Shown here in pieces: positions 56,613 through 62,728 of a stretch of DNA of 64,000 nucleotides. This DNA is from Psychroflexus tropicus DSM 15496. GTDB taxonomy: Bacteria; Bacteroidota; Bacteroidia; Flavobacteriales; Flavobacteriaceae. Numbering within the stretch: position 1 is the stretch's first letter; the number at the start of each line of letters is the position of its first letter. The translations under genes were made by a program, and so were the position numbers. Under the pieces are notes generated by a model, which was not told the origin of the DNA, made no database searches, and worked only from the letters and a program-made list of their open reading frames with translations. The stretch covers positions 851,218-915,217 of the forward strand of contig NZ_KB905343.1 in assembly GCF_000378765.1 (NCBI RefSeq). The letters run 5' to 3'.

Positions 56613-57221
56613 CTAATCTTCAATTTTTCTTATTAGCCAGCGCTTCGACTTATTCATTTTAGCAAATAAAGATGGAGATAATGGCTTAAAAGTAATTGGA
56701 GGAGGATTTCTTAAATAGTCTTTATCCAGCACAATATTTTTGGCCTCTTTGCTGAGGAATGCTATAATTTCACCTTCAGGATTGATAAGCACCTCATTAT
56801 ATTCATAAAAGACAACATTTTTACCAAGCGCGTCATTTTGTCCAGCAATGATTTTATCTAGTTTTAAAACTATTGCTCTACCATTTATAAAATTGGTTGC
56901 ATTTAAATACTGAGGTTCAATAACTGTCGACCCAGTTTCGTTTATAAATCCAAAATAAGTAATACCGTTTTTTTGACGAGTGATTAAAGAGCGGTGATCT
57001 TTAGAAATAGGATAATTTCTATTGTCAGAACTCAATGCCAAGTCACTTCAGAAATTGATGACGAGTTCTCCATTGGTGTTTATAAATCCCCATTGATTGT
57101 TTTTTTGTACCGCTGCCAAACCTTCATTAAAAGGAGCTATGTTGTCCAAATTCTCTAAAGTCTGAGCACTTGCAAATACGGAGAGCATTACAAATATTAT
57201 GCTAAATTTAATAGATCTCAT
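56613..57221 (-). pseudogene. WG-repeat protein interrupted by an in-frame TGA
   Basis: From ATG 57221 (minus strand) a frame gives a signal peptide (MRSIKFSIIFVMLSVFASAQ), then WG-repeat sequence ending NTNGELVIN at codon 57. Codon 58 is TGA (57048-57050), and the same frame continues with 144 further codons of recognisable WG repeats (FGFINETGSTVIEPQYL) to TAA at 56613. A single-base change (TGA from CGA, GGA or AGA) would restore a full 202-codon gene. The first usable start after the stop is a TTG at 57041. Sequencing error remains possible. Confidence 0.75.
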
Positions 57222-57482
57222 AATTATAGATTTTTAAGGTTTACTCTAAAATTAAGACCAAAACGAGAATAGCAAAATGATATAAATCATACTTACGATA
57301 AAAACCTAACTTCTATTAAGAAAGTTATCAGGTTAAAAAATATTTTCTGTAATTGATTTTCTGAATGACGATTAGAATCGTTTTTAATAGTATTTAACGC
57401 AAATACTGTAAAGCTTAGGCTTATATTAAAATAGAAACAGAGCTAAATAAGTTAATTTGTACCTAATTAAAAAAAACATATA

Positions 57483-58098: not shown

Positions 58099-58281
58099 GT
58101 TTAGGGTTGCCTACTTCTATTTAATTTTTAGTGTCATACAATTTAATGCTCATTTATCATCATTCATTATTACTTCTTGTCTTAACCTGCGAATAAAAAA
58201 TTATTTGAAAGCTGATTTTTATCATTTGATAAGCCTCTTATATGCTTTAATTTTAGGTGAATGAATTAAAAACTCAATACT

Positions 58282-58584
58282 ATGGAACTAGGTATTCAAT
58301 TTGTCAACATGGACACCAGCGAGAGTTTTGAAGCTTACGCCACAAAAAAGTTAAATCGATTATATAAAAAATACGAAAGCATAATTCGTGCAGAAGTTTA
58401 TATCAAAAAAGAAAACGACCCTAAAGGTCTCGGATGCATTTGCGATATAGAGTTGAGTCTATCTGGACCTAGAATATTTGCTTCTTCAAACGAAAAAAAT
58501 TATGAGTTAGCATTAAAAAATACAATAAGCGACCTGGAGGACCAATTAGAAAAGCGTAAGGGAAAACTTAAGCCTTATCACTAA
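58282..58584 (+). CDS. Short ribosome hibernation factor (HPF/RaiA family)
   Basis: 100 residues, the short HPF length. The beta-alpha-beta fold: IQFVNMDTSESFEAYATKKLNRLYKKY (helix 1 region), RAEVYIKKENDP and CDIELSLSGPRIFAS strands, then a C-terminal helix with DLEDQLEKRKGKL. It binds the decoding centre of 30S subunits to silence ribosomes in stationary phase or stress. It opens a plus-strand cluster with Usp, ATP-cone nuclease and beta-CASP RNase genes (about 110 bases before usp). Confidence 0.9.
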   Translation: MELGIQFVNMDTSESFEAYATKKLNRLYKKYESIIRAEVYIKKENDPKGLGCICDIELSLSGPRIFASSNEKNYELALKNTISDLEDQLEKRKGKLKPYH

Positions 58585-58693
58585 CTATGATATGTTCTGT
58601 TTCGTTTTTTCGAATGTTTTTTTTAATACAGGAATCTAAAGTCCATGATACTATAAATAGACGTGAATTTTTCACTTTTAAAACCTCAATACT

Positions 58694-59533
58694 ATGAAAC
58701 AGATCCTTTTACCAACCGACTTTTCAGATAACTCATGGAATTCTATCGCTTACGCTATTCATCTATTTAAAGATGAGGATTGTACGTTTCATATTTTTAA
58801 TACTTATACACCCACTATATACAAGATAGATTATAATCTTGAGTATCCTTCAGATTACGGATACTATGATGCTGCAGAAGAGGAATCCAAAAATGAGTTA
58901 GAAACTCTTGAAGCAAAGATTTCTGAAAAGAAATTAAAGTTCAGTCCACACACATTTAAGACCTATGCAAGATTTGAATCGGTAACCACTCTCATCAAGG
59001 AGTTTATAAAATCTTCTAAAATAGACTTAATCGTAATGGGTACGCAAGGAGCCACTGGAGCTAAAGAGGTTCTTTTTGGGTCGACCACAGTAAGAGTAAT
59101 CAAATCCGCTTCTTGTCCCGTCATGGCAATTCCAGCTCGGTTTTCTTATGAAAATCCTCATGAAATTTTGTTTCCAACAGATCTTGCTATCCGTTTTAAT
59201 GCTTCTCAGCTATCCTTATTGAAAGAGATTGTTGAACAACATCATGCCAGGCTTAATGCTATGCACGTCTCTGATGCACATACGCTAAGTGAAAGGCAAA
59301 AGTCTAACTTACAAGAGCTTGAAGATATTTTTAAGGGCAACGCCTTTTTATTTCATGAAGTGAAATCGATGAAAATAACTGAAGCTATCGATGAATTTCA
59401 AATCAAAAACAAGATCAATCTGCTTGTCATGCTCAATAATAAACATTCCTTTTTTGAAAATGTGTTCTTTAAAAATACTATTCATCAGATTGGCTTTCAT
59501 ATTAAAATTCCTTTCTTGGTGATGCCATCCTAG
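58694..59533 (+). CDS. Universal stress protein, tandem-domain (first)
   Basis: 279 residues with two Usp domains (about 1-145 and 150-279). The ATP-binding motif Gly-2x-Gly-9x-Gly-Ser is intact in domain 1 (GTQGATGAKEVLFGST, about 115-130), while domain 2 lacks it, the usual pattern of two-domain Bacteroidota Usp. Cytosolic dimers that bind ATP and signal stress. It lies between hpf and the ATP-cone nuclease in one direction. A second protein of the same type is encoded 2.4 kb away on the other strand. Confidence 0.9.
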   Translation: MKQILLPTDFSDNSWNSIAYAIHLFKDEDCTFHIFNTYTPTIYKIDYNLEYPSDYGYYDAAEEESKNELETLEAKISEKKLKFSPHTFKTYARFESVTTLIKEFIKSSKIDLIVMGTQGATGAKEVLFGSTTVRVIKSASCPVMAIPARFSYENPHEILFPTDLAIRFNASQLSLLKEIVEQHHARLNAMHVSDAHTLSERQKSNLQELEDIFKGNAFLFHEVKSMKITEAIDEFQIKNKINLLVMLNNKHSFFENVFFKNTIHQIGFHIKIPFLVMPS

Positions 59534-59620
59534 CAAAGCAACTTCATTTTACAAGTGAAAAATACATCTGGAGCAACAAAATTTAAGTTCGTAATATTTT
59601 TAACTGATTTAAGCTGAAGT

Positions 59621-60457
59621 ATGGAGCCACATATAGACATTATCAAATCATCCGGCGAGAAAGTGAAGTTTTCTTTAACTAAGCTGAGAAACTCACTTAA
59701 AAGTACCGGCGCAGATGACAAAACCATCAAACAGATACTGGATAAAGTAAGAGATGAACTTTATCAGGGAATTTCAACTAAAGAAATTTACAATCGTGCT
59801 TTTGCTATGCTTAAAGAAAAAAAACACGTTTTTGCGTCTAAATACAAGCTCAATAAAGCGATTTACGAGTTAGGCCCCACCGGATTTCCTTTTGAACATT
59901 TTATCAGCGAAGTATTAAAGCATTCTGGCTATACAACTAAAGTCGGTTCGGTTTTGCAGGGAAAATGTGTCTCTCATGAAGTGGATGTCATTGCTCATAA
60001 AGCTTCTCAAACTTCTTTAATCGAGTGCAAGTTTCATGGTGAACAAGGTTTTAATTGTAATGTAAAAGTCCCGTTATATATCAATTCCAGGTACCAGGAC
60101 ATCAAGGAGAACTGGCATCAATTATCAAAAAATGGTAATTCTCTAGAACCCGGATGGTTGGTTACCAACACAAGATTTACCGAGGATGCATTAAACTATG
60201 GAAAATGCTGTGGCCTATACTTGGTCAGTTGGGATTATCCATCAAAAAACGGTTTAAAAGATAGAATAGACCGATTAGGCCTCTACCCCATTACAGTTTC
60301 TACCCTGCTTACTCAACGTGAAAAGCAATTTCTCATCAGCAGATCTGTTATCTTGTGTAAAATGCTAATTAATGACAAGTTTTATTTAGATCACCTCGGA
60401 ATTTCAGACTCCAGAAAGACAAGGATTTTAAACGAAATAGAAAACTTATACCACTAA
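59621..60457 (+). CDS. ATP-cone domain fused to a PD-(D/E)XK (Mrr-like) nuclease
   Basis: 278 residues. Residues 1-85 form an ATP cone, the (d)ATP-sensing module of ribonucleotide reductases and NrdR: KVKFSLTKLRNSLKSTG, then YNRAFAMLKEKK. Residues about 90-200 are a restriction-endonuclease-like core with Asp122 (HEVDVIAH) and Glu135-Cys-Lys137 (LIECKFHG), the catalytic D...ExK triad. A helical C-terminus follows. I infer a nuclease gated by nucleotide level. It is followed 12 bases later by the beta-CASP RNase gene. The function of the combination is not described to my knowledge. Confidence 0.87.
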   Translation: MEPHIDIIKSSGEKVKFSLTKLRNSLKSTGADDKTIKQILDKVRDELYQGISTKEIYNRAFAMLKEKKHVFASKYKLNKAIYELGPTGFPFEHFISEVLKHSGYTTKVGSVLQGKCVSHEVDVIAHKASQTSLIECKFHGEQGFNCNVKVPLYINSRYQDIKENWHQLSKNGNSLEPGWLVTNTRFTEDALNYGKCCGLYLVSWDYPSKNGLKDRIDRLGLYPITVSTLLTQREKQFLISRSVILCKMLINDKFYLDHLGISDSRKTRILNEIENLYH

Positions 60458-60469
60458 GCTTTTTAATCC

Positions 60470-61843
60470 ATGGAAAATAAAGCTAACATCAGATTTTTAG
60501 GAGCCGCAAGAGAAGTGACGGGATCTAAATTTTTAATAGAAACTCCAGAACGACAGTTGCTCATCGATTGTGGTTTATTCCAGGGATTAAAAGAATTAAG
60601 GCTTCTCAATTGGCAAGACTTACCTATTGGAGTGTCAAAGATAGACGTGGTTTTACTCACACATGGACATTTGGATCATGTTGGTTATTTACCGCGTTTG
60701 GTCAAACAGGGGTTTAAGGGTAAGATCATAGGGACATCCCCAACGCTAGCTATTGCAGAAATCATATTAAAAGATAGTGCTAAAATTCATGAAGAAGACG
60801 CTAAAAAAGCCAATGAGGAAGAGTACACCAAACACAATCCTGCAAAGCCATTCTACAGCTTGTTAGAAGCTGAACTCACGATCAAACAGTTTGAAGCTGC
60901 AAATGAAAACCAATGGATTCATCTCTCAGATCACATTTCTTATCGATTTCAGTACAACGGCCATATTCTTGGAGCAACCTTTATAGAATTAGATATTTTT
61001 GAGAAGCGATTTGTCTTTTCAGGCGATATTGGGCGTCAGCATGATTATTTACTCGACCCGCCCAAACAACCTGAATGGGCGGATGTTTTAGTACTAGAGA
61101 GTACGTATGGCAATAAATTGCATCCTGAAGAATATCTGGAAGAGACCCTTACTCAAACTATTATGGAGACTTTCAATAAAAAAGGAACTCTTGTTATACC
61201 GAGTTTTGCTGTGGAGCGGCTACAAACGTTGATGTATATACTTTGGAAATTATATCAAAAAAATAAAATCCCAAACATTCCAATGGTTATAGATAGTCCA
61301 ATGGGTAATAATGTTCTCAATCTATTTAAGCAGTTTCCTGATTGGCATAAGTTATCCACAAAAGATTTCAAAGCTATGTGTCATCAATTCAGGATTATTC
61401 AATCCTACAAAGAAACCTGGGAGGTTATTGATGATAATCGACCTAAAATTATAATTGCAGGAAGTGGAATGGTGACGGGAGGAAGAGTTTTGACTTATTT
61501 ACAACAGCTTATAGATAACCCAGCAACTACCATTTTACTGGTAGGCTATCAAGCCGAAGGTACACGTGGAAGACAGCTTTTGGAAGGAGTTCATGAAATC
61601 CGCTTTTATGGTAAATATTATCCTGTAAAAGCACAGGTCAAAAACATAGAAAGTCTTTCTGCACACGCTGACCAGGCAGAAATTATTGAATGGTTAGGAA
61701 AAATAAAAAACATTCCAGAACAGGTGTATTTAGTCCATGGAGAGGCCTCTAGTCTGGATGCTTTAAGGCTAAAAATTAAGCAAACTTTTGGCTGGACTAC
61801 CTGTATTCCAAAACTCAACGACTCGTTTGAGGTTGTGCCATAA
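60470..61843 (+). CDS. MBL-fold beta-CASP ribonuclease
   Basis: 457 residues. The metallo-beta-lactamase motifs are LIDCGLFQG, THGHLDHVGY (HxHxDH at 65-70), GHILGATFIEL and FSGDIGR. Beta-CASP motif A is LESTYGN, motif B TLVIPSFAVERLQTLMY and motif C SAHADQAEIIEW. The RNA-specificity C-terminal segment is present (QVYLVHGEASSLDALR). It should be an RNA endo/exonuclease of the CPSF73/RNase J relatives, with two zinc ions. It is co-transcribed with the ATP-cone nuclease gene (12-base gap). Cytosolic. Confidence 0.92.
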   Translation: MENKANIRFLGAAREVTGSKFLIETPERQLLIDCGLFQGLKELRLLNWQDLPIGVSKIDVVLLTHGHLDHVGYLPRLVKQGFKGKIIGTSPTLAIAEIILKDSAKIHEEDAKKANEEEYTKHNPAKPFYSLLEAELTIKQFEAANENQWIHLSDHISYRFQYNGHILGATFIELDIFEKRFVFSGDIGRQHDYLLDPPKQPEWADVLVLESTYGNKLHPEEYLEETLTQTIMETFNKKGTLVIPSFAVERLQTLMYILWKLYQKNKIPNIPMVIDSPMGNNVLNLFKQFPDWHKLSTKDFKAMCHQFRIIQSYKETWEVIDDNRPKIIIAGSGMVTGGRVLTYLQQLIDNPATTILLVGYQAEGTRGRQLLEGVHEIRFYGKYYPVKAQVKNIESLSAHADQAEIIEWLGKIKNIPEQVYLVHGEASSLDALRLKIKQTFGWTTCIPKLNDSFEVVP

Positions 61844-61891
61844 TTGACATTTTGAATAAAAATAGGTGTATTTTAAATTTAATGAATTGAT

Positions 61892-62728
61892 CTAGTTTGG
61901 AAACACCATTAGAGGAACTCTAAGGTCATTGGTGATTTTATTTGTTGATGAGCCCATAAAAAAACGCTTAAAAAATCCTTCAGATTTGACTAATAAGAGT
62001 ATTAAATCTATATCGTGCGTCTGTATAAAACAATCCACGACGTATTCTAAAGGAATATTGTGCACAGCATGATACTCAAAAGGGACTGGATCGAGAAATG
62101 AAGTTAAAACTTTTTCATCGGTTCTGGCTTCTAATGGAGCCTCCCCCTTTGGGCAAATCCTTAAGGCGTGAACCTTACCGCCTACTTGCTTTATAAACTT
62201 CACAATATCCCTAAAAGAGTTATCGCTCATTTTGTCATAATCATGCAAAGGTAAGACTGTATTTTGAATAGGATTGAACTTAAACTCTGAAGGAATGGCC
62301 AAGATAGGATGTGTAATATTTCTTATCATTTTTACCGTATTGCTCCCAAACACGACTTCTTTGGCATTGGTGACTCCATTGGTCCCCATGACAGATAATT
62401 GGATATCCTTTGACTCTATGACGCTTTTTACCGCATCGGTCAAGCTATCGTAAGCAACAAGAGGGTGAAAGGATACGGATTTTATATTGTAATCTAGCTT
62501 TAACTTAGAAATTAGCTCATCGAGTTGTTGTTTAACTTCTTTCAATAAGGAATCATAAAAACTTTCATTTCCAGATGCTATGACTTCAACCGTAGAGTAA
62601 GTGGAATCTGGTTCTTTACAATGAAGTATATAAAAGCTTAGAGAATCTCCTTCAAACAGTTGCAAAGCATAATGAATCGCATTTAGGGAGTTTTCAGAAA
62701 AATCAGTAAGGGCTAAGATGTTTTTCAT
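61892..62728 (-). CDS. Universal stress protein, tandem-domain (second)
   Basis: 278 residues, two Usp domains, homologous in layout to the protein at 58694-59533. Domain 1 keeps the Gly-2x-Gly-9x-Gly-Ser ATP motif (GTNGVTNAKEVVFGSN). The C-terminal domain is diverged. It is convergent with the beta-CASP gene, 48 bases apart with no clear terminator between. A paralogue pair bracketing two nuclease genes suggests that the whole block serves one stress programme. Confidence 0.9.
   Translation of the reverse strand: MKNILALTDFSENSLNAIHYALQLFEGDSLSFYILHCKEPDSTYSTVEVIASGNESFYDSLLKEVKQQLDELISKLKLDYNIKSVSFHPLVAYDSLTDAVKSVIESKDIQLSVMGTNGVTNAKEVVFGSNTVKMIRNITHPILAIPSEFKFNPIQNTVLPLHDYDKMSDNSFRDIVKFIKQVGGKVHALRICPKGEAPLEARTDEKVLTSFLDPVPFEYHAVHNIPLEYVVDCFIQTHDIDLILLLVKSEGFFKRFFMGSSTNKITNDLRVPLMVFPN

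Follow-up and report, generated by a model that had tools for sequence, protein, structure and literature searches.

A conserved nuclease pair in a probable low-oxygen survival island of Psychroflexus tropicus and related Bacteroidota

Introduction

In mycobacteria, an oxygen sensor controls the DosR dormancy regulon, whose products include universal stress proteins (Usps), ribosome-hibernation proteins and a small heat shock protein. Here we consider a cluster of five genes in a stretch of 64,000 nucleotides (64 kb) from Psychroflexus tropicus DSM 15496, hereafter the window, which encodes the ribosome hibernation factor HPF, two Usps, a fusion of an ATP-cone with a predicted nuclease of the PD-(D/E)XK class, and a beta-CASP RNase. 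The fusion and the RNase form a conserved pair, and we propose, with a probability of about 0.62, that the locus belongs to a family of islands by which Bacteroidota survive low oxygen, a FixL/FNR-type regulon with a nuclease pair. What is new is this conserved and apparently unstudied pair, while the FixL/FNR-type low-oxygen regulon is of a known kind. The DosR regulon is not known to include such a pair. Bacteroidota are a major marine and gut phylum, and as far as we know the shutdown of their RNA use and translation at oxygen loss has been little studied.

The nearest described gene set is one induced by microoxia in Bradyrhizobium diazoefficiens. By annotation it includes Usps, Hsp20, phosphoketolase, host-attachment proteins and a run of three genes, bll3115-3117, for a metallo-beta-lactamase (MBL) hydrolase, a PRPP synthetase and a TP-family protein, which change by log2 values of 2.9, 4.4 and 2.1 as proteins and 15.4-, 7.7- and 5.1-fold as RNA (PMC6515984). 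Some members of the set are direct targets of FixK2, a Crp/FNR-type regulator (PMC6515984). A preliminary description of this DNA, made from its sequence, had stated that no described system joins these parts; in view of the Bradyrhizobium set, whose similar parts are known by annotation, that was too strong. The part of the Bradyrhizobium report considered here contains no ATP-cone nuclease and concerns another phylum; unlike there, the islands described below carry a regulator in which receiver and Crp output are fused in one protein. In the literature searched there was no paper on an ATP-cone nuclease within a microoxia-type gene set and no functional study of such a fusion.

Relatives of the single parts are better known. 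AF1548 (1Y88), a predicted nuclease of Archaeoglobus, shares the fold of fusion residues 85-278 and the catalytic D/E/K, but its aligned 184-residue chain has no ATP-cone. The ATP-cones of NrdR and ribonucleotide reductase (RNR) share the fold of residues 1-79, whereas the output domain of the fusion is a predicted nuclease. The RNase resembles the TTHA0252/CPSF73-like beta-CASP enzymes in sequence and in its intact catalytic motifs and differs from them in its genomic partner. Card1 and Can2, finally, also join a ligand sensor to a nuclease of the same class; the fusion has an ATP-cone in place of their CARF domain and is not a member of that group.

The nuclease pair

The cluster consists of the following genes, given in window coordinates.

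58282..58584, + strand: HPF/YfiA-type short ribosome hibernation factor, 100 amino acids (aa); PF02482 58.3 bits, TIGR00741 (yfiA) 43.9 against a cut-off of 40.9
58694..59533, + strand: first tandem-domain Usp; two PF00582 stretches
59621..60457, + strand: fusion of an ATP-cone (about residues 1-80) and a predicted AF1548-like PD-(D/E)XK nuclease (about 85-278), 278 aa; assigned by Pfam and predicted model
60470..61843, + strand: TTHA0252/CPSF73-like beta-CASP MBL RNase, 457 aa; PF10996 and PF07521, catalytic motifs intact
61892..62728, - strand: second tandem-domain Usp, convergent on the RNase gene; two PF00582 stretches

All five genes are present in the order first described, and the 12-base spacing between fusion and RNase genes was correctly given; the gaps along the four plus-strand genes are 109, 87 and 12 bases. 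The second Usp, however, lies on the minus strand and converges on the beta-CASP gene, and therefore does not share a transcript with it.

In the fusion, the ATP-cone is recognised by PF03477 (30.3 bits against a cut-off of 25.8) and the nuclease by PF04471, Mrr_cat (23.6 against 21). The AF1548-like C-terminal domain, PF22357, stays just under its cut-off (23.3 against 23.9 bits); it rises above it in 16 of 198 genomes of the phylum, a count in which the P. tropicus genome has no match. An AlphaFold model built from 36 sequences reached a pLDDT of 92.6 and a pTM of 0.87. Residues 85-278 of this predicted model match AF1548 with a Z of 22.5 (181 residues, rmsd 3.0), and residues 1-79 match NrdR with a Z of 11.3 (rmsd 1.8 over 78 residues). 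When the cone part was compared by itself, as a profile, with PDB sequences, the matches were biased ones to designed helical proteins only, so that the cone assignment rests on Pfam and the model fold. Asp122, Glu135 and Lys137, proposed earlier as the catalytic triad, are indeed the right residues: they are invariant in all 36 aligned sequences (the window and 35 relatives) and occupy, with a constant offset of 13 in the alignment, the places of D38, E51 and K53, the published predicted catalytic residues of AF1548 (PMC1821046).

In the cone, Lys9 and Gly12 are invariant among 61 family sequences, Lys21 is kept in 60 and position 10 is a serine in 49. This pattern would fit a nucleotide site, which falls short of proof of a ligand. 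The RNR cone of this genome reads KRNG and thus has Arg where the fusion has Ser10. The missing Arg beside Lys9 was considered as an argument against nucleotide binding and was not used, since E. coli NrdR does without the Arg too.

Among solved structures, the best sequence matches of the beta-CASP protein are Cas14 of type VII CRISPR (E 3.6e-68) and Thermus TTHA0252 (E 1.5e-66). Membership of Cas14 itself was rejected, as the NF045584 model gave 389 bits, far below its cut-off of 800; no search for a CRISPR array was made. Motifs 2-4 and A, B and C retain their His, Asp and Glu residues in 60 or 61 of 61 sequences, and the RMMBL domain is present. TTHA0252 degrades RNA; in a disruptant, 207 mRNAs were altered during log phase and 77 during stationary phase (PMC4229858).

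The fusion was found in 36 of 198 genomes of the class (two matches being partial), in 170 of 397 genomes of the family and on two of 72,556 plasmid records, from Pontibacter and Criblamydia. Relatives of the beta-CASP protein occur in 270 plasmid records.

Conservation of the neighbourhood

Two samples of loci were compared. The first comprises 60 family loci from the 170 matching genomes, one per genus, taken among matches listed by score, so that weaker matches are missing; the second comprises the best 80 of 139 named loci found with window-protein patterns, which lean to close relatives and partly overlap the 60 (for example, L072/L136). The beta-CASP gene directly follows the fusion gene, on the same strand with a gap of -60 to 300 bases, in 57 of the 60. 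Of the other three, two also have it next in line (gaps of -109 and 454 by mechanical starts) and L098 has it upstream. It comes after the fusion in 69 of the 80 named loci. At one locus, L049, the fusion gene was removed by an overlap filter. Outside the family, 9 of 32 fetched class fusion loci, some on short contigs, hold a beta-CASP gene, which is directly downstream in seven, upstream in one and divergent in one. Distances among the fusion proteins correlate with those among their beta-CASP partners (r 0.84 over 61 loci); in the 31 loci with Hsp20, r is 0.83 for fusion and beta-CASP and 0.66 for fusion and Hsp20. The conserved core of the neighbourhood is the fusion/beta-CASP pair.

Around this core the company is recurrent. 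Within 6 kb of the fusion, the 60 family loci hold a Usp in 49 cases, a 147-aa protein in 43, Hsp20 in 30, an eRF1-fold protein in 27, a receiver-Crp regulator in 26, a PAS kinase in 18, a 2-hydroxyacid-dehydrogenase-like gene in 12 and HPF in 3. Because a genome has 5-24 Usp matches (18 genomes), chance would not be expected to place a Usp so frequently in so small a stretch. Among the named loci, Usp is near in 42 of 80 and HPF in 3. A lack of conservation in related genera, named earlier as a finding that would refute the cluster, is not what is seen for the fusion, beta-CASP and Usp genes. The five-gene order was seen again in one sister species (L239), where HPF, Usp, fusion and beta-CASP are followed by the 147-aa protein and the convergent Usp, with HisS three genes on.

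Promoter architecture

A palindrome search over 254 upstream regions gave several enriched forms. TGAT-N4-ATCA was chosen since it had the most sites (108); an AT-rich form, GATATATATC (22 sites), ranked above it by ratio. With the window left out, this box precedes 102 of 249 island genes, compared with 8 of 102 genes that lie more than 2 kb away from them; for unlabelled genes at up to 2 kb the share is intermediate (44 of 202). Markov copies of the 254 regions contained a mean of 1.2 boxes and at most 4. The box precedes Hsp20 in 22 of 29 cases, the PAS kinase in 12 of 20, Usp in 53 of 110 and the 147-aa protein in 8 of 37. Boxes are few or absent before the fusion (2 of 21), the receiver-Crp gene (0 of 4) and beta-CASP (0 of 6), as expected if these are read from upstream promoters. 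In 68 of 99 boxes of the relatives, the Bacteroidota-type -7 motif TANNTTTG, with at most one mismatch, begins exactly 30 bases from the centre of the box, compared with 0-7 at 15 other offsets. This fixed spacing would place the box near -42, the position of a class II activator.

In and around the cluster, the elements are as follows.

58213..58224, + strand: FNR/CRP-type box TGATTTTTATCA, its centre about 63 bp before the HPF ATG; top matrix site, 21.05 bits
58248..58255, + strand: -7 element TAATTTTA, 30 bases from the box centre; zero mismatch to TANNTTTA
57278..57289, - strand: box TGATTTATATCA with TAATTTTA at the same spacing, facing a broken WG-repeat gene; second matrix site, 18.06 bits
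62777..62788, - strand: variant box TGACGAGAGTCA, about 54 bp before the second Usp; weak candidate, matrix rank 48, absent from the box and -7 matches

A weight matrix trained on relatives only, with the window excluded, was scanned over both strands of the 64 kb; after the top two sites, at 21.05 and 18.06 bits, the next distinct one scores 13.2. The same two, before HPF and before the broken WG-repeat gene, are the only places in the window where a box and a -7 element (TANNTTTG or TANNTTTA) combine with zero mismatch. TANNTTTA was admitted beside TANNTTTG as the commoner form in relatives (46 against 36 of 99); the element of the window was already known when this was decided. When two mismatches in all were allowed, the window gave 12 matches compared with 0-9 in 20 Markov copies, and for this reason only zero-mismatch pairs were used. 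No exact box was found before the first Usp, the fusion or the beta-CASP gene of the window. Judged by its sequence and fixed spacing, the element before HPF is an FNR-type box placed for activation. The sister locus L239 has the same box 58.5 bp before its HPF gene, and the HPF promoters of both are full matches. Before the convergent Usp, both species carry a weaker variant, TGAC-N4-GTCA, which in L239 reads TGACGGACGTCA with TAATTTTA at the same spacing.

The WG-repeat gene (56613-57221, - strand), which has an in-frame stop at about 57048-57050, is faced by a full box and -7 promoter. L239 has two longer relatives, one on each side of its cluster. DJ-1 is not favoured as the target of the box at 57278, the -7 element facing the opposite way.

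Oxygen sensor and regulator

For the PAS part of one island kinase (L104), FixL is the best PDB match (E 2.7e-12). The column aligned with the heme histidine of FixL contains His in 22 of 30 rows and Glu in one, seven rows being gapped. The partner regulator combines a receiver, a cNMP-binding fold and a Crp-type helix-turn-helix in one protein. The P. tropicus genome (G000) has both genes, adjacent and near two Usp genes, at about 19.5-21.8 kb of G000:C2 (L217); its kinase has His at the predicted heme position, and the nearer Usp has a box with one mismatch, accompanied by TACATTTG at the same spacing. In many sister genomes the regulator pair lies beside the cluster. The preliminary description had offered oxygen limitation among several triggers, and with the FixL-like kinase and Crp-type regulator of the sister islands and the FNR-type box and -7 element before HPF it is the best-supported one. 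The idea of one stress cluster survives as a shared regulatory logic in which fusion, beta-CASP and Usp are kept, with HPF as a weak member.

In four Flavobacterium loci (L190, L194, L197 and L202, the last from F. johnsoniae), the FixL-like kinase and receiver-Crp genes lie directly upstream of the fusion and beta-CASP genes.

Ribosome-directed proteins

HPF had been described as part of the cluster, and as a core member it is rejected by the counts: 3 of 60 family loci, 3 of 80 named loci and 2 of the 10 genus loci examined (L239 and L240). It is better described as a local recruit to a regulon around the two-nuclease pair. The genome has a second HPF copy at G000:C2:956916. Across 18 genomes, HPF lies within 1 kb of a Usp in at least five (G253, G403, G496, G310 and G000), at some sites outside the fusion island.

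Another candidate is more frequent. The eRF1-fold protein mentioned above, of about 135 aa (for example, L134:8515-8919), is directly upstream of the fusion in 20 of its 27 family loci. Its model (pLDDT 82.5) has the predicted fold of an eRF1 middle domain (best E 1.7e-07) and also matches Balon, a hibernation factor (E 1.1e-04). In sequence, the protein is closest to Pelota among PDB entries (E 0.0094), and its Pfam matches are all under cut-off. The window cluster has HPF and lacks this protein. A ribosome-directed partner may therefore recur in the islands by way of two different proteins; release-factor-like proteins linked to HPF have been described (PMC6514570).

Proposed role and alternative explanations

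As oxygen falls, the FixL-like PAS kinase and its receiver-Crp partner would switch on FNR-type promoters. One of these would here drive HPF, probably with Usp, fusion and beta-CASP as a single transcript, while the convergent Usp is possibly under its own weaker site. HPF would park ribosomes, and the beta-CASP RNase and the ATP-cone/AF1548-like nuclease would turn over RNA that is no longer translated, the cone setting the activity of the second nuclease by the adenine nucleotide state. A more specific and only tentative form of this proposal is that RNA destruction is gated by the ATP-cone: the change of adenine nucleotide state at low oxygen would release the AF1548-like nuclease, which would clear untranslated RNA together with the RNase, with HPF, or the Balon-like eRF1-domain protein of sister islands, shielding ribosomes. 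If true, this would be a gated nuclease like Card1/Can2 that reads the cell's own energy state rather than a CRISPR signal. The low-oxygen proposal names a testable regulon, with sensor, regulator, a DNA site of exact promoter spacing and targets that join ribosome hibernation to RNA decay.

Several findings weigh against a low-oxygen island. The regulator pair lies about 890 kb from the cluster in this genome, and, taken by itself, the exact box is no commoner in the window than chance would allow (4 sites, with 2.2 expected). HPF is rare in the islands, many Flavobacterium loci hold the nuclease pair without Usp, beta-CASP accompanies the fusion in only 9 of 32 loci outside the family, and occurrence is uneven even among genomes of the genus, of which 10 of 27 have beta-CASP. 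No expression or biochemical data on the fusion were found. In B. diazoefficiens, bll3115-3117 are induced yet not listed as direct FixK2 targets (PMC6515984), bll3115 is likened to this beta-CASP protein by annotation, and the Thermus disruptant has fewer mRNAs altered in stationary phase, the 77 given above (PMC4229858).

The pair could instead feed an energy route, in which the nucleases yield nucleotides, AMP-phosphorylase-like and PRPP-synthetase-like enzymes handle the ribose phosphates, and phosphoketolase and acetate kinase make ATP without oxygen. The plasmids of Pontibacter and Criblamydia carry fusion, beta-CASP, TP-family phosphorylase and PRPP synthetase in this order, Criblamydia with phosphoketolase, glgP and acetate kinase alongside; two loci of the class, L035 and L046, have the same four genes. 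Of five Pseudomonadota plasmids examined, four (L227, L228, L230 and L231) have TP-family and PRPP-synthetase genes near beta-CASP, and the 2-hydroxyacid-dehydrogenase-like gene of the 12 family loci can be counted on this side as well. The fifth plasmid, L229, lacks both genes and has instead a Usp beside beta-CASP with a Crp/Fnr gene and a PAS protein near. Moreover, the AMP_phos model was narrowly missed (506 and 480 against 535), TIGR02645 being passed, and no TP or PRPS match at E 1e-10 was found in the 60 family and 80 named loci. The P. tropicus genome has no TP-family phosphorylase above cut-off (one match of 40.6 bits), and with the phosphorylase missing the route was rejected for this genome; as a general account it is unlikely. 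Seen across phyla, the neighbourhood of beta-CASP with AMP-phosphorylase-like and PRPP-synthetase genes, in some cases with phosphoketolase (L225, L226, L035, L046 and plasmids L227, L228, L230 and L231), may mark an RNA-to-fermentation route.

It is quite improbable that the fusion serves DNA maintenance, its ATP/dATP sensing being tied to replication or repair and the beta-CASP protein acting separately. ATP-cones are best known for control of dNTP supply, and the fold relatives of the nuclease part include AspBHI (4oc8, Z 11.4), a Pyrococcus repair endonuclease (2vld, Z 10.7) and EndoMS (5gke, Z 10.3). The constant partner, however, belongs to the RNase group of beta-CASP proteins, and the neighbours often include ribosome-directed proteins. 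Least credible is a defence in which nucleotide-sensing nuclease, RNase and ribosome shutdown abort phage infection, phage attack having been another of the triggers first considered. The sensor and PD-(D/E)XK layout does resemble that of CRISPR ancillary Card1/Can2 (Z 9.6-9.9 for the nuclease part), and the patchy distribution with two plasmid copies of the fusion would suit such a role. On the other hand, matches to PADLOC models are weak throughout (at best E 0.00038 with the MBL part and 0.0013 with the fusion), which leaves no clear defence family and so no known anti-phage system; 50,697 phage records contain no homologue, which also speaks against phage origin; and both the neighbours and the promoters belong to a low-oxygen stress set.

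Further genes of the islands

The 147-aa protein (cluster c3; for example, L104:11845-12288) has no Pfam match, and some islands have two copies of it flanking Hsp20. In the four Flavobacterium loci named above, a cation P-type ATPase gene lies beside the nuclease pair, and L197 and L202 also have an 804-aa gene upstream, presumably for a PEP-synthase-like protein.

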